Origin: Agelas oroides
Lineage: Eukaryota; Porifera; Demospongiae; Agelasida; Agelasidae
Assembly: GCA_949130485.1 (NCBI GenBank)
Contig: OX422193.1
Coordinates: 5,748,871 to 5,812,870, forward strand
Length of the DNA stretch: 64,000 bases
Direction: 5' to 3'
Positions 33,590 to 58,424 of the stretch are shown here, one piece after another. A model generated the notes under the pieces. The model was not told the origin of the DNA, ran no database searches, and saw only the letters and a list, made by a program, of their open reading frames with translations. Both the position numbers and the translations under genes were made by a program. Position 1 is the stretch's first letter, and every line of letters starts with the position of its first letter.

Positions 33590-36500
33590 TCTTGTAGAGG
33601 AAAGTAGAGCAATGGTAGATTGTAGTAGAGTCAAGTAGAGCTAAGTAGAGCAATGGTAGAGTGTAGTAGAGCAAAGTAGAACCACTGTAGAGTGTAGTAC
33701 AGTCCACTATAGCTACGTAGAGGAATGGTAGAGTGGAGTAGAGTCAAGTAGAGCTAAGTATAGCCATGGTAGACAGTAGTAGAGTCCAGGAGAGCTAAGT
33801 ACAGTAATGGTAGAGTGTAGTAGAGTCAAGTAGAGACATGGTACGGGGCACTAGTGTCATGTAGAGACAAGTAGAGCTATGGTAGAGAGTAATAGAGTCC
33901 AGTACAGCTAAGTAGAGTAATGGTAGAGTGTAGTAGAACCATGAAGAGCCATGGTAGAGTGCAGTAAAGTCAAGTAGAGCCACGTAGAGCCATAGAAGTG
34001 TTTAGTAGAATCTAGTAGAGCTAGGTAGAGCAGTGGTAAGGTGTAGTAGAGTCCAGTAGAGCTAAGTCGTGCAAAGGTAGAGTGTAGTAGAGCAAAGTAC
34101 AGACATGGTAGCGGGCACTAGTGTCATGTAGAGACAACTAGAGCAATGGTAGAGAGTAGTAGAGTCCAGTAGAGCTAAGCAGAGTAATTGTAGAGTGTAG
34201 TAGAACCAGGAAGAGCCATGGTAGAGTGCAGTAGAGTCAAATAGAGCCAAATAGAGGCATAGAAGTGTTTAGTAGAATCCAGTAGCGCTAGGTAGAGCAA
34301 TGGTAAGGTGTAGTAGAGTCCAGTAGAGGTAAGTAGAGCAACGGTAGAGTGTAGTAGAGCCAAATAGAGACATGGTAGAGTGTAGTAGAGTCAAGTACAG
34401 CCAAGTGGAGCCAATGTAGGGTGCAGTTTAGTGTCCAGTAGAGTCATGGTAGAGTGCAGTAGAATAAAGGTGAGCGAAGGAGAGCCATAGTAGAAAGTAG
34501 TATAGTCCAGTAGAGCTAAGTAGAGTAATGGTAGAGTGTAGTAGAGCTAAGTAGAGCCATGGTAGTGTGCATTAGAGTCAAGTAGAGCCAAGTAGAGCCA
34601 TGGTAGAGAGTAGTAGAGTCCAGTAGAGCTAACTAGAGCAATGGTAGAGTGGAGAAGAGTCAATTAGGGTCAAGTAGAGCCATGGTAGACAGTAGTAGAG
34701 TCCATTAGAGCTAAGTAGAGTAATGGTAGAGTGTAGTAGAGCCAAGTAGAGACATGGTGGGGGGCACTAGTGTCATGTAGAGACAAGTAGAGCCATGGTA
34801 GAGAGTAGTAGAGTCCAGTAGAGCTAAGTAGACTAATGGTAGAGTGTAGTAGAACCAGGAAGAGTCATGGTAGAGTGCAGTAGAGTCAAGTAGAGCCACG
34901 TAGAGCCATAGAAGTGTTTAGCAGAATCCAGTAGAGCTAACTAGAGTAATGGTAAGGTGTAGTACAGTCCAGTAGAGCTACGTTGAGCAACGGTAGAGTG
35001 TAGTAGAGCCAAGTAGAGACATGGTAGGTGTCACTAGTGTCATGTAGAGACAAGTAGAGCCATGGTAGAGTGTAGTAGAGTCCAGTAGAGCTAAGTAGAG
35101 TAATGGTAGAGTGTAGTACAACCATGAAGAGCCATGGTAGAGTGGAGTAGAGTCAAGTAGAGCCACGTAGAGTCATAGAAGTGTTTAGTAAAATCCAGTA
35201 GAGCTAGGTAGAGCAATGGTAAGGTGTAGTAGAACCCAGTAGAGCTGAGTAGAGCAATGATAGAGTGTAGTAGAGCCAAGTAGAGACATGGTAGAGTGTA
35301 GTGGAGTCTTGTAGAGGCAAGTAGAGCAATGGTAGAGTGTAGTAGAGTCAAGTAGAGCTAAGTAGAGCAATGGTAGAGTGTAGTAGAGCCAAGTAGAGCC
35401 ACTGTAGAGTGCAGTACAGTCCAGTAGAGCTACGTAGAGCAATGGTAGAGTGGAGTAGAGTCAAGTAGAGCGAAGTAGAGCAACGGTAGAGTGTAGTAGA
35501 GTCAAGTACAGCTAAGTGGAGCCAATGTAGGGTGCAGTATAGTGTCCAGTAGAGTCATGGTAGAGTGCAGTAGAATAAAGTAGAGGGAAGGAGAGCCATA
35601 GTAGAAAGTAGTATAGTCCAGTAAAGCTAAGTAGAGGAATGGTAGAGTGTAGTAGAGCTGAGTAGAGCCATGGTAGTGTGCAGTAGAGTCAAGTAGAGCC
35701 AAGTAGAGCCATGGTAGAGAGTAGTAGAGTCCAGTAGAGCTAACTAGAGCAATGGTTGAGTGTAGAAGGGTCAATTAGGGTCAAGTAGAGCCATGGTAGA
35801 CAGTAGTAGAGTCCAGTAGAGCTAAGTAGAGTAATGGTAGAGTGTAGTAGAGACAAGTAGAGACATGGTAGGGGACACTAGTGTCATGTAGAGACAAGTA
35901 GAGCCATGGTAGAGAGTAGTAGAGTCCAGTAGAGCTAAGTAGAGTAATGGTAGAGTGTAGTACATCCATGAAGAGCCATGGTAGAGTGGAGTAGAGTCAA
36001 GTAGAGCCACGTAGAATCATAGACGTGTTTAGTAGAATCCAGTAAAGCTAGGTAGAGCAATGGTAAGGTGTAGTAGAGCCCAGTAGAGCTAAGTAGAGAA
36101 ATGGTAGAGTGTAGTAGAGACAAGGAGGGACATGGTAGAGTGTAGTAGAGTCTTATAGAGGCAAGTAGAGCAATGGTAGAGGGTAGTAGAGTCACGTAGA
36201 GCTAAGTAAGGCAATGGTAGAGTGTAGTAGAGCCAAGTAGAGCCACTGTAGAGTGTAGTACAGTCCAGTAGAGATACGTAAAGCAATGGTATAGAGTGGA
36301 GTAGAGTCAAGTAGAGTTAAGTAGAGCAATGGTAGAGTGTAGTAGAGCCAAGTAGAGCCATGGTAGGGGGCACTAGTGTCATGTTGAGACAAGTAGAGCC
36401 ATGGTAGAGAGTAGTAGAGTCCAGTAGAGCTAAGTAGAATAATGGTAGGGTCAAGTAGAGCCACGTAGAGCCATAGAAGTGTTTAGTAGAATCCAGTAGA

Positions 36501-37684
36501 ACTAGGTCGACCAATGGGAAGGTGTAGTAGAGTCCAGTAGAGCTAAGTAGTGCAATGGTAGAGTGTAGTAGAGCCAAGTAGAGAAATGGTAGAGTGTAGT
36601 AGAGTCTTGTAGAGCCAAGGAGAGCAATGATAAGGTGTAGTAGAGTCAGGTAGAACCAAATAGAGGCATGGTAGTGTGTAGTAGAGTCAAGTAGAGCCAA
36701 GTAGAGCCATGGTAGACAGTAGTAGAGTCCAGTAGAGCTAAGTACAGTAATGGTAGAGTGTAGTAGACTCAAGTAGAGACATGGTACGGGGCACTAGTGT
36801 CAAGTAGAGACATGTAGAGCTATGGTAGAGAGTAACAGAGTCCAGTACAGCTAAGTAGAGTAATGGTAGAGTGTAGTAGAACCATGAAGAGCCATGGTAG
36901 AATGCAGTAGAGTCAAGTAGAGCCACGTAGAGCCATAGAAGTGTTTAGTAGAATCCAGTAGTGCTAAGTAGAGCAATGGTAAGGTGTAGTAGAGTCCAGT
37001 AGAGCTAAGTAGAGCAACGGTAGAGTGTAGTAGAGCCAAGTAGAGACATGGTAGAGTGTAGTAGAGTCAAGTACAGCCAAGTTGAGCCAATGTAGGGTGC
37101 CGTATAGTGTCCAGTAGAGTCATGGTAGAGTGCAGTAGAATAAAGGTGAGCGAAGGAGAGCCATAGTAGAAAGTAGTATAGTCCAGTAGAGCTAAGTAGA
37201 GTAATGGTAGAGTGTAGTAGAGCTAAGTAGAGCCATGGTAGTGTGCAGTAGAGTCAAGTACAGCCAAGTAGAGCCATGGTAGAGAGTAGTAGAGTCCAGT
37301 AGAGCTAACTACAGCAATGGTAGAGTGTAGAAGAGTCAATTAGGGTCAAGTAGAGCCATGGTAGACAGTAGTAGAGTCCAGTAGAGCTAAGTAGTGTAAT
37401 GGTAGAGTGTAGTAGAGCCAAGTAGAGACATGGTAGGGGGCACTAGTGTCATGTAGAGACAAGTGGAGCCATGGTAGAGAGTAGTAGAGTCCAGTAGAGC
37501 TAAGTAGAGTAATGGTAGAGTGTAGTAGAACCAGGAAGAGCCATGTTAGAGTGCAGTAGAGTCAAGTAGAGCCACGTAGAGCCATAGAAGTGTTTAGCAG
37601 AATCTAGTAGAGCTAGGTAGAGTAATGGTAAGGTGTAGTAGAGTCCAGTAGAGCTACGTTGAGCAACGGTAGAGTGTAGTAGAG

Positions 37685-38026
37685 GTTGTATGTCGAGTGG
37701 GGGAGCACCAACACCGCTGGCACATCGATGTTCAAAATTTCACACATACATAAAGTGTGAAGTTAAAACATAAAGGGAGATGGGGATGGGGCATTTATGG
37801 CTTAGATGGATGGGGCATTTTATGGCTTAAATGGGTGGGTGGGGCATTTATGGCTTAAATGGGTGGGGCATTTTATGGCTTAAATGGGTGTGGTATTTAT
37901 GACTTAAATGGGTGGGGCATTTATGGCTCAAATGGATGGGGCGGTTAGTTACTGTTTTTGGGAGATATGCTCAAAAAATACTGGTCTTCAGGGGAGTACC
38001 CTTTCCGGTCCTCGCATGACCACGGG
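37685..38026 (+). repeat. Left terminal direct repeat of the insertion
   Basis: 342 bp, beginning GTTGTATGTCGAG and ending GACCACGGG. It matches 40,098-40,439 without indels and with a single difference (A at 37,768, G at 40,181). Homology stops abruptly at both edges. The inner edge lies inside the 5-prime arm of an inverted repeat (CCACGGGT 38,020-38,027 with ACCCGTGG 38,049-38,056). Confidence 0.95.
37788..37937 (+). repeat. G-rich minisatellite inside the left terminal repeat
   Basis: About six imperfect units of 22 to 29 bp built on GGGGCATTTATGGCTTAAAT plus GGGT. Length changes come from an extra T in CATTTTATGG and from GGGT or GT additions. The same block lies in the right terminal repeat. 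Confidence 0.9.
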
Positions 38027-38056
38027 TTTCCGTCCCTTTGAACTCCCGACCCGTGG
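38020..38056. other. Inverted repeat at the inner edge of the left terminal repeat
   Basis: CCACGGGT (38,020-38,027) is perfectly complementary to ACCCGTGG (38,049-38,056), with a 21-base loop. The right terminal repeat ends after the first seven bases of the 5-prime arm, so the duplication breakpoint falls in this potential hairpin. Confidence 0.6.
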
Positions 38057-38234
38057 CCTACTACAGAAAGGGCGGGACCACTCCCCGCCTAAGGTTTGCT
38101 TTGAGGAGCCCAGCTTTTGGTTGGCACATAGTGCTATGGGCATTCACAGTGCTATAAATATTCAAATTACTAAACAAATTGGGGGTGGGGCTCAATGGGT
38201 GGAGTTATCATATTAGCTTATAATAACTACGGGG
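38057..38234. other. Unique sequence, TATA-like motif, no recognised gene
   Basis: Single-copy DNA between the inverted repeat and the CpG-dense stretch. It contains GCTATAAATATTC near 38,150, a TATA-like sequence about 80 bases upstream of the ATG at 38,235. A + strand open frame from 37,908 to 38,216 runs through it but begins inside the terminal repeat and resembles nothing I know. TATA-like strings are common by chance, so promoter function is only a suggestion. Confidence 0.3.
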
Positions 38235-38372
38235 ATGGGCGAACGGTTAACGTACGGGATTCTGGCTCGCTATCGTGTCGTCTTGGTGGAACGTCTGGGA
38301 GGCTTGTTCTTTGCTGGTAGGCGCTCCTGTACCGAAGATAATTCGGGTCTGTACTGCGGCGACCATCTCACG
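38235..38372 (+). other. Candidate first exon (46 codons) in CpG-dense DNA
   Basis: Seen: ATG at 38,235 with G at -3 and G at +4, 46 open codons, then ACG followed by GTGAGT (38,373-38,378), a close match to a eukaryotic 5-prime splice site, in phase 0. The frame stays open to 38,462 if unspliced. About 15 CpG dinucleotides lie within 38,225-38,375, unlike the CpG-poor satellite. The inferred peptide begins MGERLTYG, is arginine-rich, and resembles no family I recognise. Possible acceptors with a pyrimidine run (TCTTTTTGACTACAG) end at about 39,276 and 39,686. A join there reads only 11 more codons before a stop, which weakens a protein-coding model. A non-coding transcript or chance are alternatives. 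Confidence 0.2.
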
Positions 38373-38440
38373 GTGAGTATTATTAGTTGTTTGTGTGTGA
38401 TACTCGGTCGACGGGCTTTAAATGGGAGCGTGCTTCTCTT
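38373..38440. other. Unique sequence, nothing further recognised
   Basis: Short single-copy stretch between the candidate splice donor and the TAACGG array. No repeat, gene or structured element was found in it. Confidence 0.5.
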
Positions 38441-38512
38441 AGTAACGGCGTACCTATCCTAGTAACGGCATTGTTACGCTAGTTATGGCGTGCGCTTCAC
38501 TATAGTAACGGC
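38441..38512 (+). repeat. Four-unit array of AGTAACGGC
   Basis: AGTAACGGC starts at 38,441, 38,461 and 38,504, with a degenerate AGTTATGGC at 38,481. Spacings are 20, 20 and 23 bp. TAACGG fits the animal Myb recognition consensus YAAC(G/T)G, so a cluster of binding sites is possible. The match is short and function is not shown. Confidence 0.6.
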
Positions 38513-38517
38513 ACGCC
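38487..38517. other. 7-bp inverted repeat
   Basis: GGCGTGC (38,487-38,493) and GCACGCC (38,511-38,517) are perfectly complementary across a 17-base loop and overlap the end of the TAACGG array. There is no T-run after it, so nothing suggests a Pol III terminator. Confidence 0.5.
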
Positions 38518-38574
38518 CAGGGCTGTAGTCGGTTCCATAAGGCTGAGCTAGGGGTTGGGGCTGCTCTGTGTTAT

Positions 38575-39195
38575 CTGCGAGGCTCACTCACAGTGTGAAG
38601 CTCATTCACATTAAAAATTACAAGTGTGAGGCTCACTCACACTTGAGTTACTACTGTGAGGCTCACTCACAGTTACGCTACGGGTGTGAGGCTCACTCAC
38701 ACTTGAGTTACTACTGTGAGGCTCACTCACAGTTACGCTACGGGTGTGAAGCTCATTCACACTTGAGTTACCACTGTGAGGCTCATTCACTGTTACGTTA
38801 CGAGTGTGAAGCTCATTCACATTAAAAATTACGAGTGTGAGGCTCACTCACACTTGAGTTACTACTGTGAGGCTCACTCACAGTTACGTTATGAGTGTGA
38901 AGCTCATTCACACTTGAGTTACCACTGTGAGGCTCATTCACCGTTATGTTACGAGTGTGAAGTTCATTCACATTTTTAAATTATGAGTGTGAAGCTCATT
39001 CACACTTCAGTCACATGTACTACTGTGAGGCTCACTCACAGTTACGCTACGGGTGTGAAGCTCATTCACACTTGAGTTACTACTGTGAGGTTCACTCACA
39101 GTTACGTTACGAGTCTGAAGCTCATTCACACTTGAGTTACTACAGTTACGTTATGGGTGTGAAGCTCATTCGCATTTTAAATTACGAGTGTGAGT
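38575..39195 (+). repeat. 30-bp minisatellite with hairpin-forming units
   Basis: About 20 units, mostly exactly 30 bp. Two forms tend to alternate as a 60-bp dimer: TGTGAGGCTCACTCACA with a CTTGAGTTACTAC tail, and the same core with a GTTACGCTACGGG tail. Each core can fold as TGTGAG-GCTCA-CTCACA (6-bp stem, 5-base loop). A second version, TGTGAA-GCTCA-TTCACA, keeps the stem by changing both partners. Because 30 bp is ten codons, both strands show long repetitive open frames (a CEAHS repeat on +). I regard these as by-products of unit length. Units without spacers of varied sequence rule out CRISPR. Confidence 0.93.
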
Positions 39196-39480
39196 GTGTT
39201 AGGATGAGGGCTTTATACTTTATACACATGTATCTATGTGGAGATGGATAAAAACGGGGTCTTTTTGACTACAGCTGTCCTTCCTCTCGCAATTAAATAC
39301 ACTGTGGTAGCTAGGTGGAGATCCCCTGCGGACGGGGTTGCGGGCCTGGGTGGGTTGACTGTACAAGCACATTGCCTGAGCGGATACTCTCACTATCCAC
39401 CACCTCAGCCTCCGGCTCAATTATCTCTTCACCAAGGGGGTATCCTATGGTTAACTTTGGAAAATGGGAATGGGGCTGGG
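39195..39480 (+). repeat. Internal duplicated module, copy 1
   Basis: 286 bp matching 39,605-39,890 with offset 410 and no indels. I count six differences (at 39,206, 39,224, 39,253, 39,424, 39,444 and 39,461), about 98 percent identity. It contains TCTTTTTGACTACAG, which resembles a 3-prime splice site, and ATTAAA shortly after. A + strand frame from 39,238 stays open through the module, to 39,504, and is open in copy 2 as well. Of the four differences within it three change the residue, so there is no sign of protein constraint. Confidence 0.92.
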
Positions 39481-39604
39481 GGTTGTAAAGATGTATTCGA
39501 CTAAGCTGTGGAAGGCTTGCTTGTGACCTAGTTACAACAGTAAGCTCAGATACTAAAACCTCTCTGTGTGCATGCTGTAGGTTTCTCTACGGGCTGGGTC
39601 AGGC
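39481..39604. other. Spacer between duplicated modules
   Basis: 124 bp of single-copy sequence separating the two 286-bp modules. No repeat, RNA or coding signal was recognised. Confidence 0.6.
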
Positions 39605-39890
39605 TGTGTTAGGATAAGGGCTTTATACTTTATGCACATGTATCTATGTGGAGATGGATAAAGACGGGGTCTTTTTGACTACAGCTGTCCTTCCTCTCGC
39701 AATTAAATACACTGTGGTAGCTAGGTGGAGATCCCCTGCGGACGGGGTTGCGGGCCTGGGTGGGTTGACTGTACAAGCACATTGCCTGAGCGGATACTCT
39801 CACTATCCACCACCTCAGCCTCCGGCTCAATTACCTCTTCACCAAGGGGGTATACTATGGTTAACTTTGGGAAATGGGAATGGGGCTGGG
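39605..39890 (+). repeat. Internal duplicated module, copy 2
   Basis: Second copy of the 286-bp module, about 98 percent identical to 39,195-39,480. The + strand frame from 39,648 runs on into unique DNA to 39,986 (112 codons). A minus-strand frame with the stretch YPLGEEVIEPEAEVVDSESI is also open in both copies. Neither frame resembles a known family. The two copies differ more than the terminal repeats do, so this duplication predates the terminal one. Confidence 0.92.
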
Positions 39891-40097
39891 ACAAGGAATT
39901 ATTATTGGAGAGATATTCCTTCATGCACAGTGAGAAGTCTAGCCTGTTGCTTATTGTCATGCTGTTTAGGTCTAAGGCATGCCTGAGGTATTATGGTTGT
40001 TAGAACACGTGCGTCTTCGGGTGGATCCATTGAAGGATGCTGCGGGTTCCCCATTTGGCAAGGCTGACAGACTTTATCTGTACCTGCATGTTCAGAA
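39891..40097 (+). other. Unique sequence with a short unassigned open frame
   Basis: Single-copy DNA leading into the right terminal repeat. A + strand frame begins at 39,979 and ends at 40,173, inside the terminal repeat (64 codons; it includes DPLKDAAGSPFGKADRLY). The composition is protein-like, but the length, a stop inside the repeat and an equally open opposite strand argue against a real gene. It could be a remnant of a coding region. There is no polypurine tract just before 40,098. Confidence 0.25.
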
Positions 40098-40439
40098 GTT
40101 GTATGTCGAGTGGGGGAGCACCAACACCGCTGGCACATCGATGTTCAAAATTTCACACATACATAAAGTGTGAAGTTAAAGCATAAAGGGAGATGGGGAT
40201 GGGGCATTTATGGCTTAGATGGATGGGGCATTTTATGGCTTAAATGGGTGGGTGGGGCATTTATGGCTTAAATGGGTGGGGCATTTTATGGCTTAAATGG
40301 GTGTGGTATTTATGACTTAAATGGGTGGGGCATTTATGGCTCAAATGGATGGGGCGGTTAGTTACTGTTTTTGGGAGATATGCTCAAAAAATACTGGTCT
40401 TCAGGGGAGTACCCTTTCCGGTCCTCGCATGACCACGGG
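40098..40439 (+). repeat. Right terminal direct repeat of the insertion
   Basis: 342 bp, 341 identical to 37,685-38,026 (the difference is at 40,181). It is followed by one extra A (40,440) and then the satellite, CCAAGTAGAG. The distance between the two terminal repeats is 2,413 bp, so the insertion equals 1.14 turns of a 2,413-bp unit. Confidence 0.95.
40201..40350 (+). repeat. G-rich minisatellite inside the right terminal repeat
   Basis: The same roughly six-unit 22-29 bp minisatellite as at 37,788-37,937, with identical unit-length variants. Slippage has therefore not altered it since the terminal repeats were formed. Confidence 0.9.
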
Positions 40440-40788
40440 ACCAAGTAGAGACATGGTAGGTGGCACTAGTGTCATGTAGAGACAAGTAGAGCCATGGTAG
40501 AGTGTAGTAGAGTCCAGTAGAGCTAAGTAGAGTAATGGTAGAGTGTAGTACAACCATGAAGAGCCATGGTAGAGTGGAGTAGAGTCAAGTAGAGCCACGT
40601 AGAGTCATAGAAGTGTTTAGTAAAATCCAGTAGAGCTAGGTAGAGCAATGGTAAGGTGTAGTAGAGCCCAGTAGAGCTGAGTAGAGCAATGGTAGAGTGT
40701 AGTAGAGCCAAGTAGAGACTTGGTAGAGTGTAGTGGAGTCTTGTAGAGGCAAGTAGAGCAATGGTAGAGTGTAGTAGGGTCAAGTAGA

Positions 40789-41323
40789 GCTAAGTAGAGA
40801 AATGGTAGAGTGTAGTACAACCATGAAGAGCCAGGGTAGAGTGGAGTAGAGTCACGTAGAGCCACGTAGAGCCATAGAAGTGTTTAGCAGAATCCAGTAG
40901 AGCTAGGTAGAGTAATGGTAAGGTGTAGTAGACTCCAGTAGAGCTACGTTGAGCAACGGTAAAGTGAAGTAGAGCCAAGCTGAGACATGGTAGGTGGCAC
41001 TAGTGTCATGTAGAGGCAAGTAGAGCCATGGTAGAGTGTAGTAGAGTCCAGTAGAGCTAAGTAGAGCAATGGTAGAGTGTAGTACAACCATGAAGAGCCA
41101 GGGTAGAGTGGAGTAGAGTCACGTAGAGCCACGTAGAGCCATAGAAGTGTTTAGCAGAATCCAGTAGAGCTAGGTAGAGTAATGGTAAGGTGTAGTAGAC
41201 TCCAGTAGAGCTACGTTGAGCAACGGTAAAGTGAAGTAGAGCCAAGCTGAGACATGGTAGGTGGCACTAGTGTCATGTAGAGGCAAGTAGAGCCATGGTA
41301 GAGTGTAGTAGAGTCCAGTAGAG
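40789..41323 (+). repeat. 267-bp tandem duplication
   Basis: 40,789-41,056 and 41,057-41,323 are nearly identical, sharing GCCAGGGTAGAGTGG, GACTCCAGTAGAG, GTAAAGTGAAGTAG and CCAAGCTGAGAC. A third, shorter match runs to about 41,405. 267 = 113+113+41, a whole number of monomers. Confidence 0.88.
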
Positions 41324-43267: not shown

Positions 43268-43339
43268 CCAAGGAGAGCCTAGCCTCATCCCCATGGCAGG
43301 CTCTCTCCTCAAAACCGGCGGGGGAGGAGAAAGCCTTGG
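43268..43339. mobile_element. 72-bp fold-back insertion in the satellite
   Basis: GC-rich, non-satellite sequence. It starts CCAAGG (43,268-43,273) and ends CCTTGG (43,334-43,339), which are inverted repeats. Inside are two more stems: GAGAGCCT (43,273-43,280) with AGGCTCTC (43,298-43,305), and TCTCCTC (43,304-43,310) with GAGGAGA (43,324-43,330). The satellite reads GAACCAAG before and ACATGG after, as in a normal monomer with the element in between. It may be a miniature inverted-repeat element or a fragment of one; no family is assigned. Confidence 0.6.
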
Positions 43340-45500: not shown

Positions 45501-47147
45501 ATGGTAGAGTGTAGTAGAGCCAAGTAGAGACATGGTAGGGGCCACTAGTGTCATGTAGAGACAAGTAGAGCAATGGTAGAGAGTAGTAGAGCCAAGAAGA
45601 GACATGGTAGGGGGCACTAGTGTCATGTTGAGACAAGTAGAGGAATGGTAGCGAGTAGTACATGGTAAGGTGTAGTAGAGTCCAGTAGAGATAAGTCGAG
45701 GAAAGGTAGAGTGTAGTAGAGCCAAGTACAGACATGGTAGGGGGCACTAGTGTCATGTAGAGACAAGTAGAGCAATGGTAGAGAGTAGTAGAATCCAGTA
45801 GAGCTAAGTAGAGTAATGGTAGAGTGTAGTAGAATCAGGAAGAGCCATGTTAGAGTGCAGTAGAGTCAAGTAGAGCCACGTAGAGCCATAGAAGTGTTTA
45901 GTATAGCGATGATAAGGTGTAGTACAGTCCAGTAGAGCTAAGTAGAGTAATGGTAGAGTGTAGTAGAGCCAAGTAGAGACATGGTAGGGGGCACTAGTGT
46001 CATGTAGAGACAAGTAGAGCAATGGTAGAGAGTAGTAGAGTCCAGTAGAGCTAAGTAGAGTAATGGTAGAGTGTAGTAGAACCAGGAAAAGCCATGGTAG
46101 AGTGCAGCAGAGTCAAGTAGAGCAACGTAGATCCATAGAAGTGTTTAGTAGAATCCAGTAGAGCTAGGTAGAGCAATGGTAAGGTGTAGTAGAGTCCAGT
46201 AGAGCTAAGTAGAGCAATGGTAGAGTGTAGTAGAGCCAAGTAGAGACATGGTGGAGTGTAGTATAGTCAAGTACAGCTAAGTGGAGCCAATGTAGGGTGC
46301 AGTATAGTGTCCAGTAGAGTCATGGTAGAGTGCAGTGGAATAAAGTAGAGCGAAGGAGAGCCATAGTACAAAGTAATATAGTCCAGTATAGCTAAGTAGA
46401 GTAATGGCAGAGTGTGGTAGAGCTAAGTACAGCCATGGTAGTGTGCAGTAGAGTCAAGTAGAGCTAAGTAGAGCCATGGTAGAGATTAGTAGAGTCCAGT
46501 AGACCTAACTAGAGCAATGGTAGAGTGTAGAAGAGTCAATTAGGATCAAGTAGAGTCATGGTAGACAGTACTATAGTCCAGTAGAGCTAAGTATAATGGT
46601 AGAGTGTAGTAGAGCCAAGTACAGACATGGTAGGGGGAACTAGTGTCATGTAGAGACAAGTAGAGCCATGGTAGAGAGTAGTAGAGTCGAGTAGAGCTAA
46701 GTAGAGTAATGGTAGAGTGTAGTAGAACCAGGAAGAGCCATGGTAGTGTGCAGTAGAGTCAAGTAGAGCCACGTAGAGCCATAGAAGTGTTTAGCAGAAT
46801 CTACTAGATCTAGGTAGAGTAATGGTAAGGTGTAGTAGAGTCCAGTAGAGCTAAGTTGAGCAATTGTAGAGTGTAGTAGAGCCAAGTAGAGACATGGTAG
46901 GTGGCACTAATGTCATGTAGAGACAAGTAGAGCCATGGTAGAGTTTAGTAGAGTCCAGTAGAGCTAAGTAGAGTAATGGTAGAGTGTAGTACAACCATGA
47001 AGAGCCATGGTAGAGTGGAGTAGAGTCAAGTAGAGCCACGTAGAGTCATAGAAGTGTTTAGTAGAATCCAGTAGAGCTAGGTAGTGCAATGGTAAGGTGT
47101 AGTAGAGCCCAGTAGAGCTGAGTGGAGCAATGGTAGAGTGTAGTAGA

Positions 47148-50100
47148 GCCAAGTAGAGACATGGTAGAGTGTAGTAGAGTCTTGTAGAGTCAAGTAGAGG
47201 AATGGTAGAGTGAAGTAGAGTCAAGTAGAGCTAAGTAGAGCAATGGTAGAGTGTAGTAGAGCCAAGTAGAGCCGCTGTAGAGTGTAGTACAGTCCAGTAG
47301 AGCTACGTAGAGCAATGGTACAGTGGAGTAGAGTCAAGGAGAGCTAAGTAGAGCAATGGTAGAGTGTAGTAGAGCCAAGTAGAGACATGGTAGACCGTAG
47401 TAGAGTCTTGTAGAGCCAAGTAGAGCAATGGTAGTGTGTAGTAGAGTCAGATAGTGCCAAGTAGAGCCATGGTAGAGTGTAGTAGAGTCAAGTAGAGTCA
47501 TGGTAGACAGTAGTAGAGTCCAGTAGAGGCAAGTAGAGTAATGGTAGACTGTAGTAGAGCAAAATAGAGACATGGTACGGGGCACTAGTGTCATGTAGAG
47601 AGAAGTAGAGCTATGGTAGAGTGTTATAGAGTCCAGTACAGCTAAGTACAGGAATGGTAGAGTGTAGTAGAACCAGGAAGAGCCATGGTAGAGTGCAGTA
47701 GAGTCATGTAGAGCAAAGTAGAGCCATAGAAGTGTTTAGTAGAATCTAGTAGAGCTAGGTAGAGCAATGGTAAAGTGTAGCAGAGTCCAGTAGAGCTAAG
47801 TCGAGCAAAGGTTGAGTGTAGTAGAGCCAAGTACAGACATGGTAGGGGGCACTAGTGTCATGTAGAGACGAGTAGAGCAATGGTAGAGAGTAGTAGAATC
47901 CAGTAGAGCTAAGTAGAGTAATGGTAGAGTGTAGTACAACCATGAAGAGCCATGGTAGAGTGGAGTAGAGTCAAGTAGAGCTACGTAGAGTCATACAATT
48001 GTGTAGTAGAATCCAGTAGAGCTAGGTAGAACAATGGTAAGGTGTAGTAGAGCCCAGTAGAGCTGAGTAGAGCAATGGTAGAGTGTAGGAGAGCCAATTA
48101 AAGACATGGTAGAGTGTAGTAGAGTCTTGTAGAGGGAAGTTCAGCAATGGTAGAGTGTAGTAGAGTCAAGTACCGCTAAGTAGAGCAATGGTAGAGTGTA
48201 GTAGAGTCCAGTAGAGCTAGGTAGAGCAATTGAAGAGTGTAGTAGAGCCAAGTAGAGCCACGGTAGGGGGCACTAGTGTCATGTTGAGACAGGTAGAGCC
48301 ATGGTAGAGAGTAGTAGAGTCAAGTAGAGCTAAGTAGAGTAATGGTAGAGTGTAGTAGAATCAGGAAGAGCCATGGTAGTGTGCAGTAGAGTCAAGTACA
48401 GCCACATAGAGCCATAGAAGTGTTTAGCAGAATCCTGTAGAGCTAGGTAGAGTAATCGTAAGTTGTAGTAGAGTCCAGTAGAGCTAAGTAGAGCAATGGT
48501 AGAGTGTAGTAGAGTCTTGTAAAGCCAAGTAGACCAATGGTAGTGTGTAGTAGAGTCAGGTAGAGCCATGTAGAGCCATGGTTGAGTGTAGTAGAGTCAA
48601 GTAGAGCCAAGTAGAGCCATGGTAGACAGTAGTAGAGTCCAGTAGAGCTAAGTACAGTAATGGTAGAGTGTAGTAGAGCCAAGTAGAGACATGGTAGGGG
48701 GCACTAGTGTCATGTAGAGACAAGTAGAGCAATGGTAGAGAGTAGTAGAGTCCAGTAGAGCTAAGTAGAGTATTGATAGAGTGTAGTAGAACCAGGAAGA
48801 GCCATGGTAGAGTGCAGTAGAGTCAAGTAGAGCCACGTAGAGCCATAGAAGTGTTTAGTAGAGCAATGGTAAGGTGTAGTAGAGTCCAGTAGAGCTAAGT
48901 AGAGCAATGTTAGAGTGTAGTAGAGCAAAGCAGAGACATGGTAGGGGGCACTAGGGTCATGTAGAGACAAGTAGAGCAATGGTAGAGAGTAGTAGAGTCC
49001 AGTAGAGCTAAGAGCAATGGTAGAGTGTAGTAGAGTCAAGTAGAGCTAAGTAGAGCAATGGTAGAGTGTAGTAGAGCGAAGTTGAGCCATGGCAGGGGGT
49101 ACTAGTGTCATGTAGAGACAAGTAGAGCCATGGTAGAGAGTAGTAGAGTCCAGTAGAGCCAAGTAGAGTAATGGTAGAGTCAAGTAGAGCCACGTAGAGT
49201 CATAGAAGTGTTTAGTAGAATCCAGTAGAACTAGGTAGACCAATGGTAAGGTGTAGTAGAGTCCAGTAGAGCTACGTAGAGCAATGGTAGAGTGGAGTAG
49301 ACTCAAGTAGAGCTAAGTAGTGCAATGGTAGAGTGTAGTAGCGTCCAGTAGAGCTCGGTAGAGCAATGGTAGAGTGTAGTAGAGGCAAGTAGAGCCATGG
49401 TAGGGGGCACTAGTGTCATGTAGAGACAAGTAGAGCCATGGTAGAGAGTAGTAGATTCCAGTAGAGCTAAGTAGAGTAATGGTAGAGTCAAGTAGAGCCA
49501 CGTAGAGCCATAGAAGTGTTTAGTAGAATCCAGTAGAACCAGGTAGACCAATGGTAAGGTGTAGTAGAGTCGAGTAGAGCTAGGTAGAGCAATGGTAGAG
49601 TGTAGTAGTGCCAAGTAGAGACATGGTAGACCGTAGTAGAGTCTTGTAGAGCCAAGTAGAGGAATGGTAGTGTGTAGTAGAATCAGGTAGAGCCAAGTAG
49701 AGCCATGGTAGAGTGTAGTAGAATCAAGTAGAGCCAAGTAGAGTCATGGTAGACAGTAGTAGAGTCCAGTAGAGGCAAGTAGAGTAATGGTAGAGTGTAG
49801 TAGAGCAAAGTAGAGACATGGTACGGGGCACTAGTGTCATGTAGAGAGAAGTAGAGCTATGGTAGAGAGTAACAGAGTCCAGTACAGCTAAGTAGAGTAA
49901 TGGTAGAGTGTAGTAGAACCAGGAAGAGCCATGGTAGAGTGCAGTAGAGTCAAGCAGAGCCACGTAGAGCCATAGAAGTGTTTAGTAGAATCTAGTAGAG
50001 CTAGGTAGAGCAATGGTAAGGTGTAGCAGAGTCCAGTAAAGCTATATCGAGCAAAGGTAGAGTGTAGTAGAGCCAAGTACAGACATGGTAGGGGGCACTA

Positions 50101-53100
50101 GTGTCATGTAGAGACAAGTAGAGCAATGGTAGAGAGTAGTAGAATCCAGTAGAGCTAAGTAGAGTAATGGTAGAGTGTAGTACAACCATGAAGATCCATG
50201 GTAGAGTGGAGTAGAGTCAAGTAGAGCCACGTAGAGTCATACAATTGTTTAGTAGAATCCAGTAGAGCTAGGTAGAGCAATGGTAAGGTGTAGTAGAGCC
50301 CAGTAGAGCTGAGTAGAGCAATGGTAGAGTGTAGTAGAGCCAATTAGAGACATGGTAGAGTGTAGTAGATTCTTGTAGAGGCATGTAGAGCAATGGTAGA
50401 GTGTAGTAGAGTCAAGTAGACGTAAGTAGAGCAATGGTAGAGTGTGGTAGAGTCCAGTGAAGCTAGGTAGAGCAATGATAGAGTGTAGTAGAACCAAGTA
50501 GAGACATGGTAGGGGGCACTAGTGTCATGTAGAGACAAGTAGAGCAATGGTAGAGAGTAGTAGAGTCCAGTAGAGCTAAGGAGAGTAATGGTAGAGTGTA
50601 GTAGAACCAGGAAAAGCCATGGTAGATTGCAGTAGAGTGAAGTACAGCCACATAGTGCCATAGAAGTGTTTAGCAGAATCCAGTAGAGCTAGATAGAGTA
50701 ATGGTGAGGTGTAGTAGAGTCCAGTAGAGCTAAATAGAGCAATGGTAGAGTGTAGTAGAACCAAGTAGAGACATGGTAGACTGTAGTAGAGTCTTGTAGA
50801 GCCAAGTAGAGCAATGGTAGTGTGTAGTAGAGTCAGGTAGAGCCATGTAGAGCCATGGTTGAGTGTAGTAGCGTCAAGTAGAGTCAAGTAGAGCCACGGT
50901 AGACAGTAGTAGTGTCCAGTAGAGCTAAGTAGTGTAATGGTAGAGTGTAGTAGAGCCAAGTAGAGAGATGGTACGGGGCACTAGTGTCATGTAGAGAGAA
51001 GTAGAGCTATGGTAGAGAGTAACAGAGTCCAGTACAGCTAAGTAGAGTAATGGTAGAGTGTAGTAGAACCAGGAAGAGCCATGGTAGAGTGCAGTAGAGT
51101 CAAGTAGAGCCACATAGAGCCATAGAAGTGTTTCGTAGAGCAATGGTTAGGTGTAGTAAAGTCCAGTAGAGCTAAGTAGAGCAATGGTAGAGTGTAGTAG
51201 AGCCAAGTAGAGATATGGTAGGGGGCACTAGTGTCATGTAGAGACAAGTAGAGCAATGGTAGAGAGTAGTAGAGTCCAGTAGATCTAAGTAGAGCAATGG
51301 TAGAGTGTAGTAGAGTCAAGTAGAGCTAAGTAGAGCAATGGTAGAGTGTAGTAGAGCCAAGTAGAGCCACTGTAGAGTGTAGTTCAGTCCAGTAGAGCTA
51401 CGTAGAGCAATGGTAGAGTGGAGTAGAGTCAAGTAGAGCTAAGTAGAGCAATAGTAGAGTGTAGTAGAGTCAAGTAAAGCTAGGTAGAGCAATGGTAAAG
51501 TGTAGTAGAGCCAAGTAGAGCCATAGTAGGGGGCACTAGTGTCATGTAGAGACAAGTAGAGCCATGGTAGAGAGTAGAAGAGTCCAGTAGAGCTAAGTAG
51601 AGTAATGGTAGAATCAAGGAGAGCCACGTAGAGCCATCGAAGTGTTTAGTAGAATCCAGTAGAACTAGGTAGACCAATGGTAAGGTGTAGTAGAGTCCAG
51701 TAGAGCTAGGTAGAGCAATGGTAGAGTGTAGTAGAGCCAAGTAGAGACATTGTAGACTGTAGTAGAATCTTGTAGAGTCAAGTAGAGCAATGGTAGTGTG
51801 TAGTAGAGTCTGGCAGAGCCAATTAGAGCCATGGTAGAGTGTAGTAGAGTCAAGTAGAGCCAAGTTGAGTCATGGTAGACAGTAGTAGAGTCCAGTAGAG
51901 CTAAGTAGAGCAATGGTAGAGTGTAGTAGAGTCCAGTAAAGCTAGGTAGAGCAATGGTAAAGTGTAGTAGAGCCAAGTAGAGCCATGGTTGGGGGCACTA
52001 GTGTCATGTAGAGACAAGTAGAGCCATGGTAGAGAGTAGTAGAGTCCAGTAGAGCTAAGTAGAGTAATGATAGAGTCAAGTAGAGCCACATAGAGCCATC
52101 GAAGTGTTTAGTAGAATCCAGTAGAACTAGGTAGACCAATGGTAAGGTGTAGTAGAGTCCAGTAGAGCTAGGTACAGCAATGGTAGAGTGTATTAGAGCC
52201 AAGTAGAGACATGGTAGACTGTAGTAGAATCTTGTAGAGCCAAGTAGAGCAATGGTAGTGTGTAGTAGAGTCTGGTAGAGCCAAGTAGAGACATGGTAGA
52301 GTGTAGTAGAGTCTTGTAGAGGCAAGTAGAGGAATGGTAGAGTGAAGTAGAGTCAAGTAGAGCTAAGTAGAGCAATGGTAGAGTGTAGTAGAGCCAAGTA
52401 GAGCCGCTGTAGAGTGTAGTACAGTCCAGTAGAGCTACGTAGAGCAATGGTACAGTGGAGTAGAGTCAAGGAGAGCTAAGTAGAGCAATGGTAGAGTGTA
52501 GTAGAGCCAAGTAGAGACATGGTAGACCGTAGTAGAGTCTTGTAGAGCCAAGTAGAGCAATGGTAGTGTGTAGTAGAGTCAGATAGTGCCAAGTAGAGCC
52601 ATGGTAGAGTGTAGTAGAGTCAAGTAGAGTCATGGTAGACAGTAGTAGAGTCCAGTAGAGGCAAGTAGAGTAATGGTAGACTGTAGTAGAGCAAAATAGA
52701 GACATGGTACGGGGCACTAGTGTCATGTAGAGAGAAGTAGAGCTATGGTAGAGTGTTATAGAGTCCAGTACAGCTAAGTACAGGAATGGTAGAGTGTAGT
52801 AGAACCAGGAAGAGCCATGGTAGAGTGCAGTAGAGTCATGTAGAGCAAAGTAGAGCCATAGAAGTGTTTAGTAGAATCTAGTAGAGCTAGGTAGAGCAAT
52901 GGTAAAGTGTAGCAGAGTCCAGTAGAGCTAAGTCGAGCAAAGGTTGAGTGTAGTAGAGCCAAGTACAGACATGGTAGGGGGCACTAGTGTCATGTAGAGA
53001 CGAGTAGAGCAATGGTAGAGAGTAGTAGAATCCAGTAGAGCTAAGTAGAGTAATGGTAGAGTGTAGTACAACCATGAAGAGCCATGGTAGAGTGGAGTAG

Positions 53101-56100
53101 AGTCAAGTAGAGCTACGTAGAGTCATACAATTGTGTAGTAGAATCCAGTAGAGCTAGGTAGAACAATGGTAAGGTGTAGTAGAGCCCAGTAGAGCTGAGT
53201 AGAGCAATGGTAGAGTGTAGGAGAGCCAATTAAAGACATGGTAGAGTGTAGTAGAGTCTTGTAGAGGGAAGTTCAGCAATGGTAGAGTGTAGTAGAGTCA
53301 AGTACCGCTAAGTAGAGCAATGGTAGAGTGTAGTAGAGTCCAGTAGAGCTAGGTAGAGCAATTGAAGAGTGTAGTAGAGCCAAGTAGAGCCACGGTAGGG
53401 GGCACTAGTGTCATGTTGAGACAGGTAGAGCCATGGTAGAGAGTAGTAGAGTCAAGTAGAGCTAAGTAGAGTAATGGTAGAGTGTAGTAGAATCAGGAAG
53501 AGCCATGGTAGTGTGCAGTAGAGTCAAGTACAGCCACATAGAGCCATAGAAGTGTTTAGCAGAATCCTGTAGAGCTAGGTAGAGTAATCGTAAGTTGTAG
53601 TAGAGTCCAGTAGAGCTAAGTAGAGCAATGGTAGAGTGTAGTAGAGTCTTGTAAAGCCAAGTAGACCAATGGTAGTGTGTAGTAGAGTCAGGTAGAGCCA
53701 TGTAGAGCCATGGTTGAGTGTAGTAGAGTCAAGTAGAGCCAAGTAGAGCCATGGTAGACAGTAGTAGAGTCCAGTAGAGCTAAGTACAGTAATGGTAGAG
53801 TGTAGTAGAGCCAAGTAGAGACATGGTAGGGGGCACTAGTGTCATGTAGAGACAAGTAGAGCAATGGTAGAGAGTAGTAGAGTCCAGTAGAGCTAAGTAG
53901 AGTATTGATAGAGTGTAGTAGAACCAGGAAGAGCCATGGTAGAGTGCAGTAGAGTCAAGTAGAGCCACGTAGAGCCATAGAAGTGTTTAGTAGAGCAATG
54001 GTAAGGTGTAGTAGAGTCCAGTAGAGCTAAGTAGAGCAATGTTAGAGTGTAGTAGAGCAAAGCAGAGACATGGTAGGGGGCACTAGGGTCATGTAGAGAC
54101 AAGTAGAGCAATGGTAGAGAGTAGTAGAGTCCAGTAGAGCTAAGAGCAATGGTAGAGTGTAGTAGAGTCAAGTAGAGCTAAGTAGAGCAATGGTAGAGTG
54201 TAGTAGAGCGAAGTTGAGCCATGGCAGGGGGTACTAGTGTCATGTAGAGACAAGTAGAGCCATGGTAGAGAGTAGTAGAGTCCAGTAGAGCCAAGTAGAG
54301 TAATGGTAGAGTCAAGTAGAGCCACGTAGAGTCATAGAAGTGTTTAGTAGAATCCAGTAGAACTAGGTAGACCAATGGTAAGGTGTAGTAGAGTCCAGTA
54401 GAGCTACGTAGAGCAATGGTAGAGTGGAGTAGACTCAAGTAGAGCTAAGTAGTGCAATGGTAGAGTGTAGTAGCGTCCAGTAGAGCTCGGTAGAGCAATG
54501 GTAGAGTGTAGTAGAGGCAAGTAGAGCCATGGTAGGGGGCACTAGTGTCATGTAGAGACAAGTAGAGCCATGGTAGAGAGTAGTAGATTCCAGTAGAGCT
54601 AAGTAGAGTAATGGTAGAGTCAAGTAGAGCCACGTAGAGCCATAGAAGTGTTTAGTAGAATCCAGTAGAACCAGGTAGACCAATGGTAAGGTGTAGTAGA
54701 GTCGAGTAGAGCTAGGTAGAGCAATGGTAGAGTGTAGTAGTGCCAAGTAGAGACATGGTAGACCGTAGTAGAGTCTTGTAGAGCCAAGTAGAGGAATGGT
54801 AGTGTGTAGTAGAATCAGGTAGAGCCAAGTAGAGCCATGGTAGAGTGTAGTAGAATCAAGTAGAGCCAAGTAGAGTCATGGTAGACAGTAGTAGAGTCCA
54901 GTAGAGGCAAGTAGAGTAATGGTAGAGTGTAGTAGAGCAAAGTAGAGACATGGTACGGGGCACTAGTGTCATGTAGAGAGAAGTAGAGCTATGGTAGAGA
55001 GTAACAGAGTCCAGTACAGCTAAGTAGAGTAATGGTAGAGTGTAGTAGAACCAGGAAGAGCCATGGTAGAGTGCAGTAGAGTCAAGCAGAGCCACGTAGA
55101 GCCATAGAAGTGTTTAGTAGAATCTAGTAGAGCTAGGTAGAGCAATGGTAAGGTGTAGCAGAGTCCAGTAAAGCTATATCGAGCAAAGGTAGAGTGTAGT
55201 AGAGCCAAGTACAGACATGGTAGGGGGCACTAGTGTCATGTAGAGACAAGTAGAGCAATGGTAGAGAGTAGTAGAATCCAGTAGAGCTAAGTAGAGTAAT
55301 GGTAGAGTGTAGTACAACCATGAAGATCCATGGTAGAGTGGAGTAGAGTCAAGTAGAGCCACGTAGAGTCATACAATTGTTTAGTAGAATCCAGTAGAGC
55401 TAGGTAGAGCAATGGTAAGGTGTAGTAGAGCCCAGTAGAGCTGAGTAGAGCAATGGTAGAGTGTAGTAGAGCCAATTAGAGACATGGTAGAGTGTAGTAG
55501 ATTCTTGTAGAGGCATGTAGAGCAATGGTAGAGTGTAGTAGAGTCAAGTAGACGTAAGTAGAGCAATGGTAGAGTGTGGTAGAGTCCAGTGAAGCTAGGT
55601 AGAGCAATGATAGAGTGTAGTAGAACCAAGTAGAGACATGGTAGGGGGCACTAGTGTCATGTAGAGACAAGTAGAGCAATGGTAGAGAGTAGTAGAGTCC
55701 AGTAGAGCTAAGGAGAGTAATGGTAGAGTGTAGTAGAACCAGGAAAAGCCATGGTAGATTGCAGTAGAGTGAAGTACAGCCACATAGTGCCATAGAAGTG
55801 TTTAGCAGAATCCAGTAGAGCTAGATAGAGTAATGGTAAGGTGTAGTAGAGTCCAGTAGAGCTAAATAGAGCAATGGTAGAGTGTAGTAGAACCAAGTAG
55901 AGACATGGTAGACTGTAGTAGAGTCTTGTAGAGCCAAGTAGAGCAATGGTAGTGTGTAGTAGAGTCAGGTAGAGCCATGTAGAGCCATGGTTGAGTGTAG
56001 TAGCGTCAAGTAGAGTCAAGTAGAGCCACGGTAGACAGTAGTAGTGTCCAGTAGAGCTAAGTAGTGTAATGGTAGAGTGTAGTAGAGCCAAGTAGAGAGA

Positions 56101-57411
56101 TGGTACGGGGCACTAGTGTCATGTAGAGAGAAGTAGAGCTATGGTAGAGAGTAACAGAGTCCAGTACAGCTAAGTAGAGTAATGGTAGAGTGTAGTAGAA
56201 CCAGGAAGAGCCATGGTAGAGTGCAGTAGAGTCAAGTAGAGCCACGTAGAGCCATAGAAGTGTTTCGTAGAGCAATGGTTAGGTGTAGTAAAGTCCAGTA
56301 GAGCTAAGTAGAGCAATGGTAGAGTGTAGTAGAGCCAAGTAGAGATATGGTAGGGGGCACTAGTGTCATGTAGAGACAAGTAGAGCAATGGTAGAGAGTA
56401 GTAGAGTCCAGTAGATCTAAGTAGAGCAATGGTAGAGTGTAGTAGAGTCAAGTAGAGCTAAGTAGAGCAATGGTAGAGTGTAGTAGAGCCAAGTAGAGCC
56501 ACTGTAGAGTGTAGTTCAGTCCAGTAGAGCTACGTAGAGCAATGGTAGAGTGGAGTAGAGTCAAGTAGAGCTAAGTAGAGCAATAGTAGAGTGTAGTAGA
56601 GTCAAGTAAAGCTAGGTAGAGCAATGGTAAAGTGTAGTAGAGCCAAGTAGAGCCATAGTAGGGGGCACTAGTGTCATGTAGAGACAAGTAGAGCCATGGT
56701 AGAGAGTAGAAGAGTCCAGTAGAGCTAAGTAGAGTAATGGTAGAATCAAGGAGAGCCACGTAGAGCCATCGAAGTGTTTAGTAGAATCCAGTAGAACTAG
56801 GTAGACCAATGGTAAGGTGCAGTAGAGTCCAGTAGAGCTAGGTAGAGCAATGGTAGAGTGTAGTAGAGCCAAGTAGAGACATTGTAGACTGTAGTAGAAT
56901 CTTGTAGAGTCAAGTAGAGCAATGGTAGTGTGTAGTAGAGTCTGGCAGAGCCAATTAGAGCCATGGTAGAGTGTAGTAGAGTCAAGTAGAGCCAAGTTGA
57001 GTCATGGTAGACAGTAGTAGAGTCCAGTAGAGCTAAGTAGAGCAATGGTAGAGTGTAGTAGAGTCCAGTAAAGCTAGGTAGAGCAATGGTAAAGTGTAGT
57101 AGAGCCAAGTAGAGCCATGGTTGGGGGCACTAGTGTCATGTAGAGACAAGTAGAGCCATGGTAGAGAGTAGTAGAGTCCAGTAGAGCTAAGTAGAGTAAT
57201 GATAGAGTCAAGTAGAGCCACGTAGAGCCATCGAAGTGTTTAGTAGAATCCAGTAGAACTAGGTAGACCAATGGTAAGGTGTAGTAGAGTCCAGTAGAGC
57301 TAGGTAGAGCAATGGTAGAGTGTATTAGAGCCAAGTAGAGACATGGTAGACTGTAGTAGAATCTTGTAGAGCCAAGTAGAGCAATGGTAGTGTGTAGTAG
57401 AGTCTGGTAGA
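47148..57411 (+). repeat. 5,132-bp tandem duplication
   Basis: 47,148-52,279 and 52,280-57,411 align at a constant offset of 5,132 with no indels seen. I found six differences: 47,190/52,322, 50,706/55,838, 51,114/56,246, 51,688/56,820, 52,090/57,222 and 52,175/57,307, about 99.9 percent identity. The junctions share GAGCCAAGTAGAGAC, a string common throughout the satellite, as expected for unequal crossing-over. Boundaries are good to within about 15 bp. Confidence 0.93.
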
Positions 57412-58424
57412 GCCAAGTAGAGCCATGGTAGAGTGTAGTAGAGTCAAGTAGAGCCAAGTTGAGTGAGGGTAGACAGTAGTAGAGTCCAGTAGAGCTAAGT
57501 AGAGTAATGGTAGTGTGTAGTAGAACCAGGAAAAGCCATGGTAGAGTGCAGTAGAGTGAAGTACAGTCACATAGTGCCATAGAAGTGTTTAGCAGAATCC
57601 AGTAGAGCTAGGTAGAGTAATGGTAAGGTGTAGTAGAGTCCAGTAGAGCTAAATAGAGCAATGGTAGAGTGTAGTAGAGCCAAGTAGAGACACGGTAGAC
57701 TGTAGTATAGTCTTGTAGAGCCAAGTAGAGCAATGGTAGTGCGTAGTAGAGTCAGGTAGAGCCATGTAGAGCCATGGTTGAGTGTAGTAGCGTCACGTAG
57801 AGCCAAGTAGAGCCATGGTAGACAGTAGTAGTGTCCAGTAGAGCTAAGTAGAGTAATGTTAGAGTGTAGTAGAGCCAAGTAGAGAGATGGTACGGGGCAC
57901 TAGTGTCATGTAGAGAGAAGTAGAGCTATGGTAGAGAGTAATAGAGTCCAGTACAGCTAAGTAGAGTAATGGTAGCGTGTAGTAGAACCAGGAAAAGCCA
58001 TGGTAGAGTGCAGTAGAGTCAAGTTGAGCCACGTAGAGCCATAGAAGTGTTTAGTAGAGCAATGGTAAGGTGTAGTAGAGTCCAGTAGAGCTAAGTTGAG
58101 CAATGGTAGAGTGTAGTAGAGCCAAGTAGAGACATGGTAGGGGGCACTAGTGTCATGTAGAGACAAGTAGAGCAATGGTAGAGAGTAGTAGAGTCCAGTA
58201 GAGCTAAGTAGAGCAATGGTAGAGTGTAGTAGAGTCAAGTAGAGCTATGTAGAGCAATGGTAGAGTGTAGTAGAGCCAAGTAGAGCCACTGTAGAGTGTA
58301 GTACAGTCCAGTAGAGCTACGTAGAGCAATGGTAGAGTGAAGTAGAGTCAAGTAGAGCTAAGTAGAGCAATGGTAGAGTGTAGTAGAGTCCAGTAAAGCT
58401 AGGTAGAGCAATGGTAAAGTGTAG

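Follow-up and report, generated by a model that had tools for sequence, protein, structure and literature searches.

The 64,000-nucleotide stretch of Agelas oroides DNA considered here (contig OX422193.1, positions 5,748,871 to 5,812,870; hereafter the window) consists of an AG-rich satellite array that is interrupted at 37,685-40,440 by approximately 2.76 kb of non-satellite bases, referred to below as the insert. Outside the insert and a single small patch, Tandem Repeats Finder reports satellite from end to end of the window, the units measuring near 10, 31, 41, 72, 113, 154 and 267 bp; a strong purine skew is present in 1-kb windows, other than those covering 37 to 41 kb. When 12-mers lacking a further occurrence at least 3 kb away are scanned for, the non-satellite signal is sharply bounded, from approximately 37,675 to 40,439. 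The insert begins and ends with nearly the same sequence, and its features are collected in Table 1 together with those of the satellite on either side.

Table 1. Features of the insert and of the flanking satellite, in positions of the window.
Feature	Positions	Strand	Remark or basis
Closest uninterrupted paralogue of the joined flanks	34609..35408	+	96.9%; junction 35008/35009
Left satellite flank	37285..37684	+	ends ...GTAGTAGAG
Left terminal direct repeat	37685..38026	.	342 bp
24-bp minisatellite, 6.2 copies, within left repeat	37787..37942	.	Tandem Repeats Finder
Internal region, 2,071 bp	38027..40097	.	no family match above cut-off
30-bp (60-bp dimeric) array, ~18 copies, many units hairpin-capable	38592..39140	.	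Tandem Repeats Finder, DNA fold
Internal 286-bp direct duplication, copy 1	39195..39480	.	period 410 bp
Internal 286-bp direct duplication, copy 2	39605..39890	.	6 differences from copy 1
Right terminal direct repeat	40098..40439	.	342 bp; 1 difference from left; contains 24-bp minisatellite at 40200-40355
Extra base A	40440	.	between right repeat and satellite; read as end-joining filler
Right satellite flank	40441..40840	+	begins CCAAGTAGAG...

The insertion occurred without the loss or duplication of a single satellite base. When the two flanks are joined (800 bp), they align with the closest paralogue without gaps and with 25 differences, so that the clean insertion proposed in an earlier reading of this DNA made from the letters alone (the sequence-only reading) is upheld; the offsets to the paralogue that it gave, 2,676 bp on the left and 5,432 bp on the right, correspond to flank identities of 290/300 and 296/300, respectively. 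The empty state of the site is common in the window. Fifteen non-overlapping, uninterrupted satellite copies match the joined flanks at 88-97% in a scan that by design detects ungapped copies only, at a threshold of at least 88%, and 1,208 alignments span the empty junction once non-spanning ones are dropped, several of the 25 listed having small gaps. At the joint itself, 51 of the 96 ungapped 300-bp placements above 85% (overlaps kept) read exactly GTAGTAGAG followed directly by CCAAGTAGA, and the 25-base empty-site string GTAGTAGAGCCAAGTAGAGACATGG occurs 70 times.

The insertion site lies between a G and a C, and the insert ends in GTTG...GGG(A). The heptamer AGTAGAG closes the left flank and recurs 3 bases after the right flank begins, and was considered as a 7-bp target duplication; this was rejected, as the site that it predicts, GTAGTAGAGACATGG, has 0 occurrences in the window, and over 600 bp the reading with the duplication reaches a best ungapped identity of 0.782, versus 0.977 for the reading without it. 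AGTAGAG is a subrepeat of the satellite itself; therefore, no target duplication is present, in agreement with the earlier claim that the target was neither duplicated nor shortened.

At the right joint, the same reading had placed the end of the insert at 40,440, one base beyond the repeat: the A at this position is part of neither the terminal repeat nor the satellite consensus, and GTAGTAGAGACCAAG has 0 occurrences in the window. The joint is ambiguous by 1 bp: the window also contains 9 occurrences of a variant of the site, GTAGTAGAACCAAG, and if the target had this form, the A at 40,440 would count as satellite, with a G at the left joint as the extra base instead. Microhomology is limited to AGA at the left joint, beside a mismatched last base (AGAA versus AGAG), and is absent from the right joint.

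The two terminal repeats, whose length and single difference had been correctly described, lie 2,413 bp apart and differ by one A/G substitution in 342 bp, and their identity ends abruptly, the preceding bases being CAGAA versus TAGAG and the following ones TTTCC versus ACCAA. When the insert was shuffled 200 times by single bases, the longest exact word common to its first and last 400 bases reached 12 bp. The repeats read GTTGTATG...CCACGGG, that is, GTTG...CGGG (CCCG...CAAC on the minus strand), as expected from the earlier statement that TG...CA ends are missing. A terminal inverted similarity, GTTGT-ATGTCGAG / GTGGTCATG-CGAG, is suggestive and was rejected as chance (p = 0.103 and 0.0996 under two nulls). 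A further inverted repeat, CCACGGGT...ACCCGTGG at 38020-38056, spans the boundary at which the left terminal repeat ends; the right terminal repeat stops 7 bases into what would be the first 8-base arm of this pair.

The interior is likewise repetitive, and the insert as a whole is tandem-repeated at four scales, namely 24 bp (6 copies), 30-bp hairpins (18 copies), 410 bp (1.7 copies) and 2,413 bp (1.14 copies). In the hairpin array, units GTGTGAAGCTCATTCACAC and CTGTGAGGCTCACTCACAG alternate and are separated by TTAC-type spacers. The DNA fold of 38,570-39,215 gives z = -8.59 against 20 shuffles, a strong single-strand folding potential, and the inverted-repeat pairs (best 25 of 90 by length) lie mostly inside the hairpin array or touch it; the left terminal repeat, folded as either strand, and positions 37,940-38,110, folded as the plus strand, are at shuffle level (z from 0.05 to 0.65). 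The observed/expected ratio of CpG is 0.57 in the insert (37685-40440) versus 0.16 in the satellite to its left (1-37684), a contrast that perhaps reflects methylation of the satellite and an insert that is recent or treated differently.

The terminal repeats have diverged at 1 of 342 positions, compared with 25 of 800 between the joined flanks and their nearest paralogue (Fisher p = 0.0018); the contrast with the internal 286-bp pair and its 6 differences is weaker (p = 0.051). If rates are equal, the insertion event would be younger than the split between the flank and paralogue copies of the satellite, which would be why the paralogue is empty.

These features can be accounted for by the repair of a chromosome break. 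In this scheme, a double-strand break would have arisen in one satellite monomer, between ...GTAGTAGAG and CCAAGTAGAG..., and would have been sealed by the incorporation of DNA that originated elsewhere. The donor may have been the 2,413-bp sequence in the form of a tandem array, or a multimeric or rolling-circle extrachromosomal circle, and cutting of the donor molecule at two arbitrary points would have released a fragment longer than one unit. Such a fragment of a tandem donor must carry terminal direct repeats (2,755 = 2,413 + 342). Similarly, ligation by end joining would be the reason for the missing target duplication, the missing terminal motifs and the one untemplated A, and the tandem duplication of the insert at 24, 30, 410 and 2,413 bp is as anticipated for a fragment that came from tandem-repeat DNA. 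The break, the multimeric donor and the ligation are all three steps that we infer from the form of the insert and its joints, and the reading as a whole, in which 1.14 units of tandem or multimeric-circular DNA were end-joined into a double-strand break, is given an even chance of being correct.

Comparable events have been described. Class 2 templated sequence insertions are presented, in the available part of one report, as double-strand breaks repaired with a patch from a distant genomic region, and are set there against a class with target duplications (PMC5110952). The insert is like them in having no target duplication and no transposon ends, and its joints are as in end joining; it differs from them, as far as that part of the report describes them, in being known without its donor locus, in having terminal repeats (1.14 units) and in having a satellite as its target. 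A source for such a fragment is suggested by human cells, where tandem repeats of the chromosomes give rise to circular multimers and where structures interpreted as rolling-circle intermediates are described for 5S rDNA and the 2.5-kb SstI satellite (PMC3225859). The unit size is similar (2.4 kb in the insert, 2.5 kb in that satellite), and a multimer of this kind could yield a fragment of more than one unit; in contrast to the repeats treated there, the 2,413-bp unit is known from the inserted fragment alone.

Several observations weigh against repair with a captured fragment. The insert is present as a single copy within the window, in which neither a donor array nor a circle is seen. Near-identical terminal repeats are equally expected of an element of the long terminal repeat (LTR) or Penelope type, and, on the minus strand, the left repeat is bordered by a purine-rich tract, AAAGGGACGGAAA (12 of 13 bases), in the manner of a polypurine tract. 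For end joining, the loss of zero satellite bases is tidy. The low divergence of the terminal repeats fits a recent event under a patch or an element alike and does not discriminate between them. Of what the sequence-only reading proposed for the origin of the insert, integrated extrachromosomal DNA, or another captured tandem piece, fits best; the new or non-autonomous element that it also named is possible and is not established, because the insert is a single copy with no family match and no relative. If the insert is a patch, the satellite array retains dozens of uninterrupted copies of the target site, which allow its repair joints to be resolved at single-base level; should additional copies with identical ends occur, the insert would instead represent an element whose movement involves no staggered cut and whose empty site is found in this same window.

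The weighing of mobile elements depends in part on the searches for coding and structural signals. All 41 stop-to-stop frames of at least 40 amino acids from the insert and its immediate surroundings were compared with Pfam, the sole protein library used, and none of the 41 exceeded the curated cut-off (best, Amelogenin, E = 0.02); no match to a reverse transcriptase, a GIY-YIG endonuclease, gag or pol was obtained in these frames, shorter or diverged remnants being possible. Over the 286-bp duplication, a minus-strand frame appeared protein-like for approximately 55 residues. It was judged non-coding, on weak evidence: each of the six frames has at least one stop over the full length of both copies, and in the minus-strand frame 3 of the 6 differing codons alter the residue. 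The insert is apparently non-coding. In Rfam, 2,956 searched bases had 0 matches up to E = 10, and the CTGANGA...GAAA order of a hammerhead ribozyme core was found on neither strand; a minus-strand CTGAAGA was tried as such a core and dropped, as no GAAA follows it in the right order. A tRNA scan of the whole window returned 0. A-box-like matches for RNA polymerase III (Pol III) are present, mostly in the 24-bp minisatellite, and a B box was found on neither strand. Words resembling a poly-A signal occur on the plus strand at 38610, 38821, 39292 and 39702. At 38153-38379, TATAAATA is followed approximately 210 bp later by GGTGAGTA, motifs which we take to resemble a promoter followed by a first exon with its splice donor.

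The main rival is a non-autonomous Penelope-like element (PLE), mobilised in trans by the reverse transcriptase and GIY-YIG endonuclease of a PLE, whose full 2,413-bp copy and 342-bp truncated copy would stand in partial tandem and give rise to pseudo-LTRs (pLTRs). PLEs are described, in the parts of the literature available here, as arranged in tandems or partial tandems, the overlap of which makes pseudo-LTRs (PMC8969392, PMC11167929). In a bdelloid rotifer, the quoted families have pLTRs of 193-218 bp, some with captured non-PLE sequence between them, and one partial-tandem copy is reported without target duplication, its 5' junction having formed via microhomology (PMC3846280, as quoted in part). 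The insert agrees with these elements, so far as the cited parts describe them, in being a partial tandem of 1.14 copies with terminal direct repeats and in the absence of target duplication, which some of their copies also lack. It departs from them in that the 41 frames and the Rfam search yielded no reverse transcriptase, GIY-YIG endonuclease or hammerhead ribozyme, and that an inverted pLTR is missing. The near absence of microhomology at its joints is unlike the duplication-free rotifer copy in the portion of that study at hand, and its site is not AT-rich, whereas one studied PLE favours AT-rich sites in the part of the source that treats them (PMC11167929). On balance, a Penelope-like origin is unlikely, with a small yet appreciable probability.

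Somewhat less probable is a non-autonomous LTR retroelement of TRIM/LARD-like type, the linear cDNA of which would have been end-joined instead of being inserted by an integrase, leaving no target duplication. Such an origin would explain two near-identical terminal direct repeats of LTR-like length, and the minus-strand tract noted above, the complement of 38,027-38,039, adjoins the left repeat; on that strand, TG...CA also appears by eye if 4 and 2 bases are trimmed from the repeat ends. The true ends are nevertheless GTTG...CGGG, and the joined flanks equal an uninterrupted monomer, with no duplication of 4-6 bp. Primer sites of the TGG type follow from the CCA end of tRNAs. By this rule, applied by eye and with no tRNA set compared, no such site was seen directly beside either repeat in either orientation, which accords with the earlier claim that a tRNA primer site is missing. 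The parallel claim for a polypurine tract is only partly sustained: it holds for the plus strand, which has no purine run of at least 10, and fails for the minus strand, where the 12-of-13 tract lies beside the left repeat, the two runs of at least 10 on that strand lying in the 286-bp copies and not beside a repeat. With no gag or pol match in the 41 frames, this origin remains doubtful.

A new family of mobile elements with terminal direct repeats and blunt, duplication-free integration would account for the intact-looking terminal repeats, the clean joints and the lack of a known family in Rfam or Pfam. Against it are the single copy, the absence of an enzyme and, within the window, of a second copy with common ends, and the resemblance of the interior to tandem-repeat DNA; such a family is improbable. 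The more specific form, a mobile family with simple terminal repeats and a hairpin-array core that is integrated bluntly by an enzyme that has yet to be linked with such an architecture, is slightly less probable again. Among known classes without target duplication, the split-direct-repeat DIRS elements are most commonly arranged as A1-internal-B1-A2-B2, other configurations existing, and Helitrons and Helentrons integrate either between an A and a T or upstream of a T, according to the part of the source that deals with them (PMC8969392). The insert is like DIRS elements in having no target duplication; it differs from DIRS and Ngaro in having one simple terminal-repeat pair, with its other repeats internal and its inverted ends at chance, and from Helitrons and Helentrons (5' TC/CTRR 3' or 5' T ends) in both its site and its ends.

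An assembly join is a remaining alternative, in which non-satellite sequence would have been misplaced within the satellite and the 342-bp repeats would reflect a repeat used in linking contigs. Assembly of long satellite arrays is difficult, and the one in the window includes a near-identical duplication of approximately 5.2 kb. However, both joints fall in one monomer at an identical phase, one A being the sole base gained and none being lost, and the two flanks have a common close paralogue at the same offset, which is unexpected of a random misjoin; we regard this explanation as quite improbable.

Finally, a non-autonomous DNA transposon of the KolobokP type, with long terminal direct repeats (LTDR-INT-LTDR), is already contradicted on all four features tested and is very improbable: the direct repeat-internal-direct repeat architecture and the size class agree with non-autonomous oyster families (1,738-3,261 bp), whereas the repeats of approximately 450 or 660 bp, inverted ends of up to 18 bp, 5'-RR...YY-3' termini and target duplications of 3-5 bp described in the available part of that report (PMC9587614) are replaced in the insert by 342-bp repeats, no significant inverted ends (p ~0.10), GT...GG termini and no target duplication.

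Relatives of the insert were sought both within the window and in collections of DNA. The rest of the 64-kb window contains no BLAST match to the insert up to E = 10, and hence no second copy. The DNA collections searched were those of prokaryotes, phages, plasmids and viruses, none of them holding eukaryotic genomes; therefore, their negative results say little on the source genome. No relative was found in plasmids up to E = 1, and two matches in phage DNA (best E = 0.8) were taken as chance. Exact patterns of the insert and of the satellite each gave 0 in viral contigs and 0 in prokaryote contigs, and satellite words had no match in literature text.

Elsewhere in the array, the only other strong non-satellite signal of the 12-mer scan is at approximately 43.2-43.5 kb, where a second, small GC-rich patch interrupts a monomer at 43268-43339 (bounds approximate). 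It contains inverted repeats, with CCAAGG...CCTTGG at its edges and an imperfect GGAGAGCCT...AGGCTCTCTCC inside, and BLAST indicates no relationship with the large insert, the matches being confined to short words (best E = 0.68). The satellite also carries tandem duplications of its own. Positions 47129-52331 and 52261-57463 are 99.7% identical over approximately 5.2 kb at an offset of 5,132 bp, which suggests that kilobase-scale unequal exchange may have been recent in this array, and a further tandem duplication at 55785-58241 has an offset of 4,421 and an identity of 99.2%.

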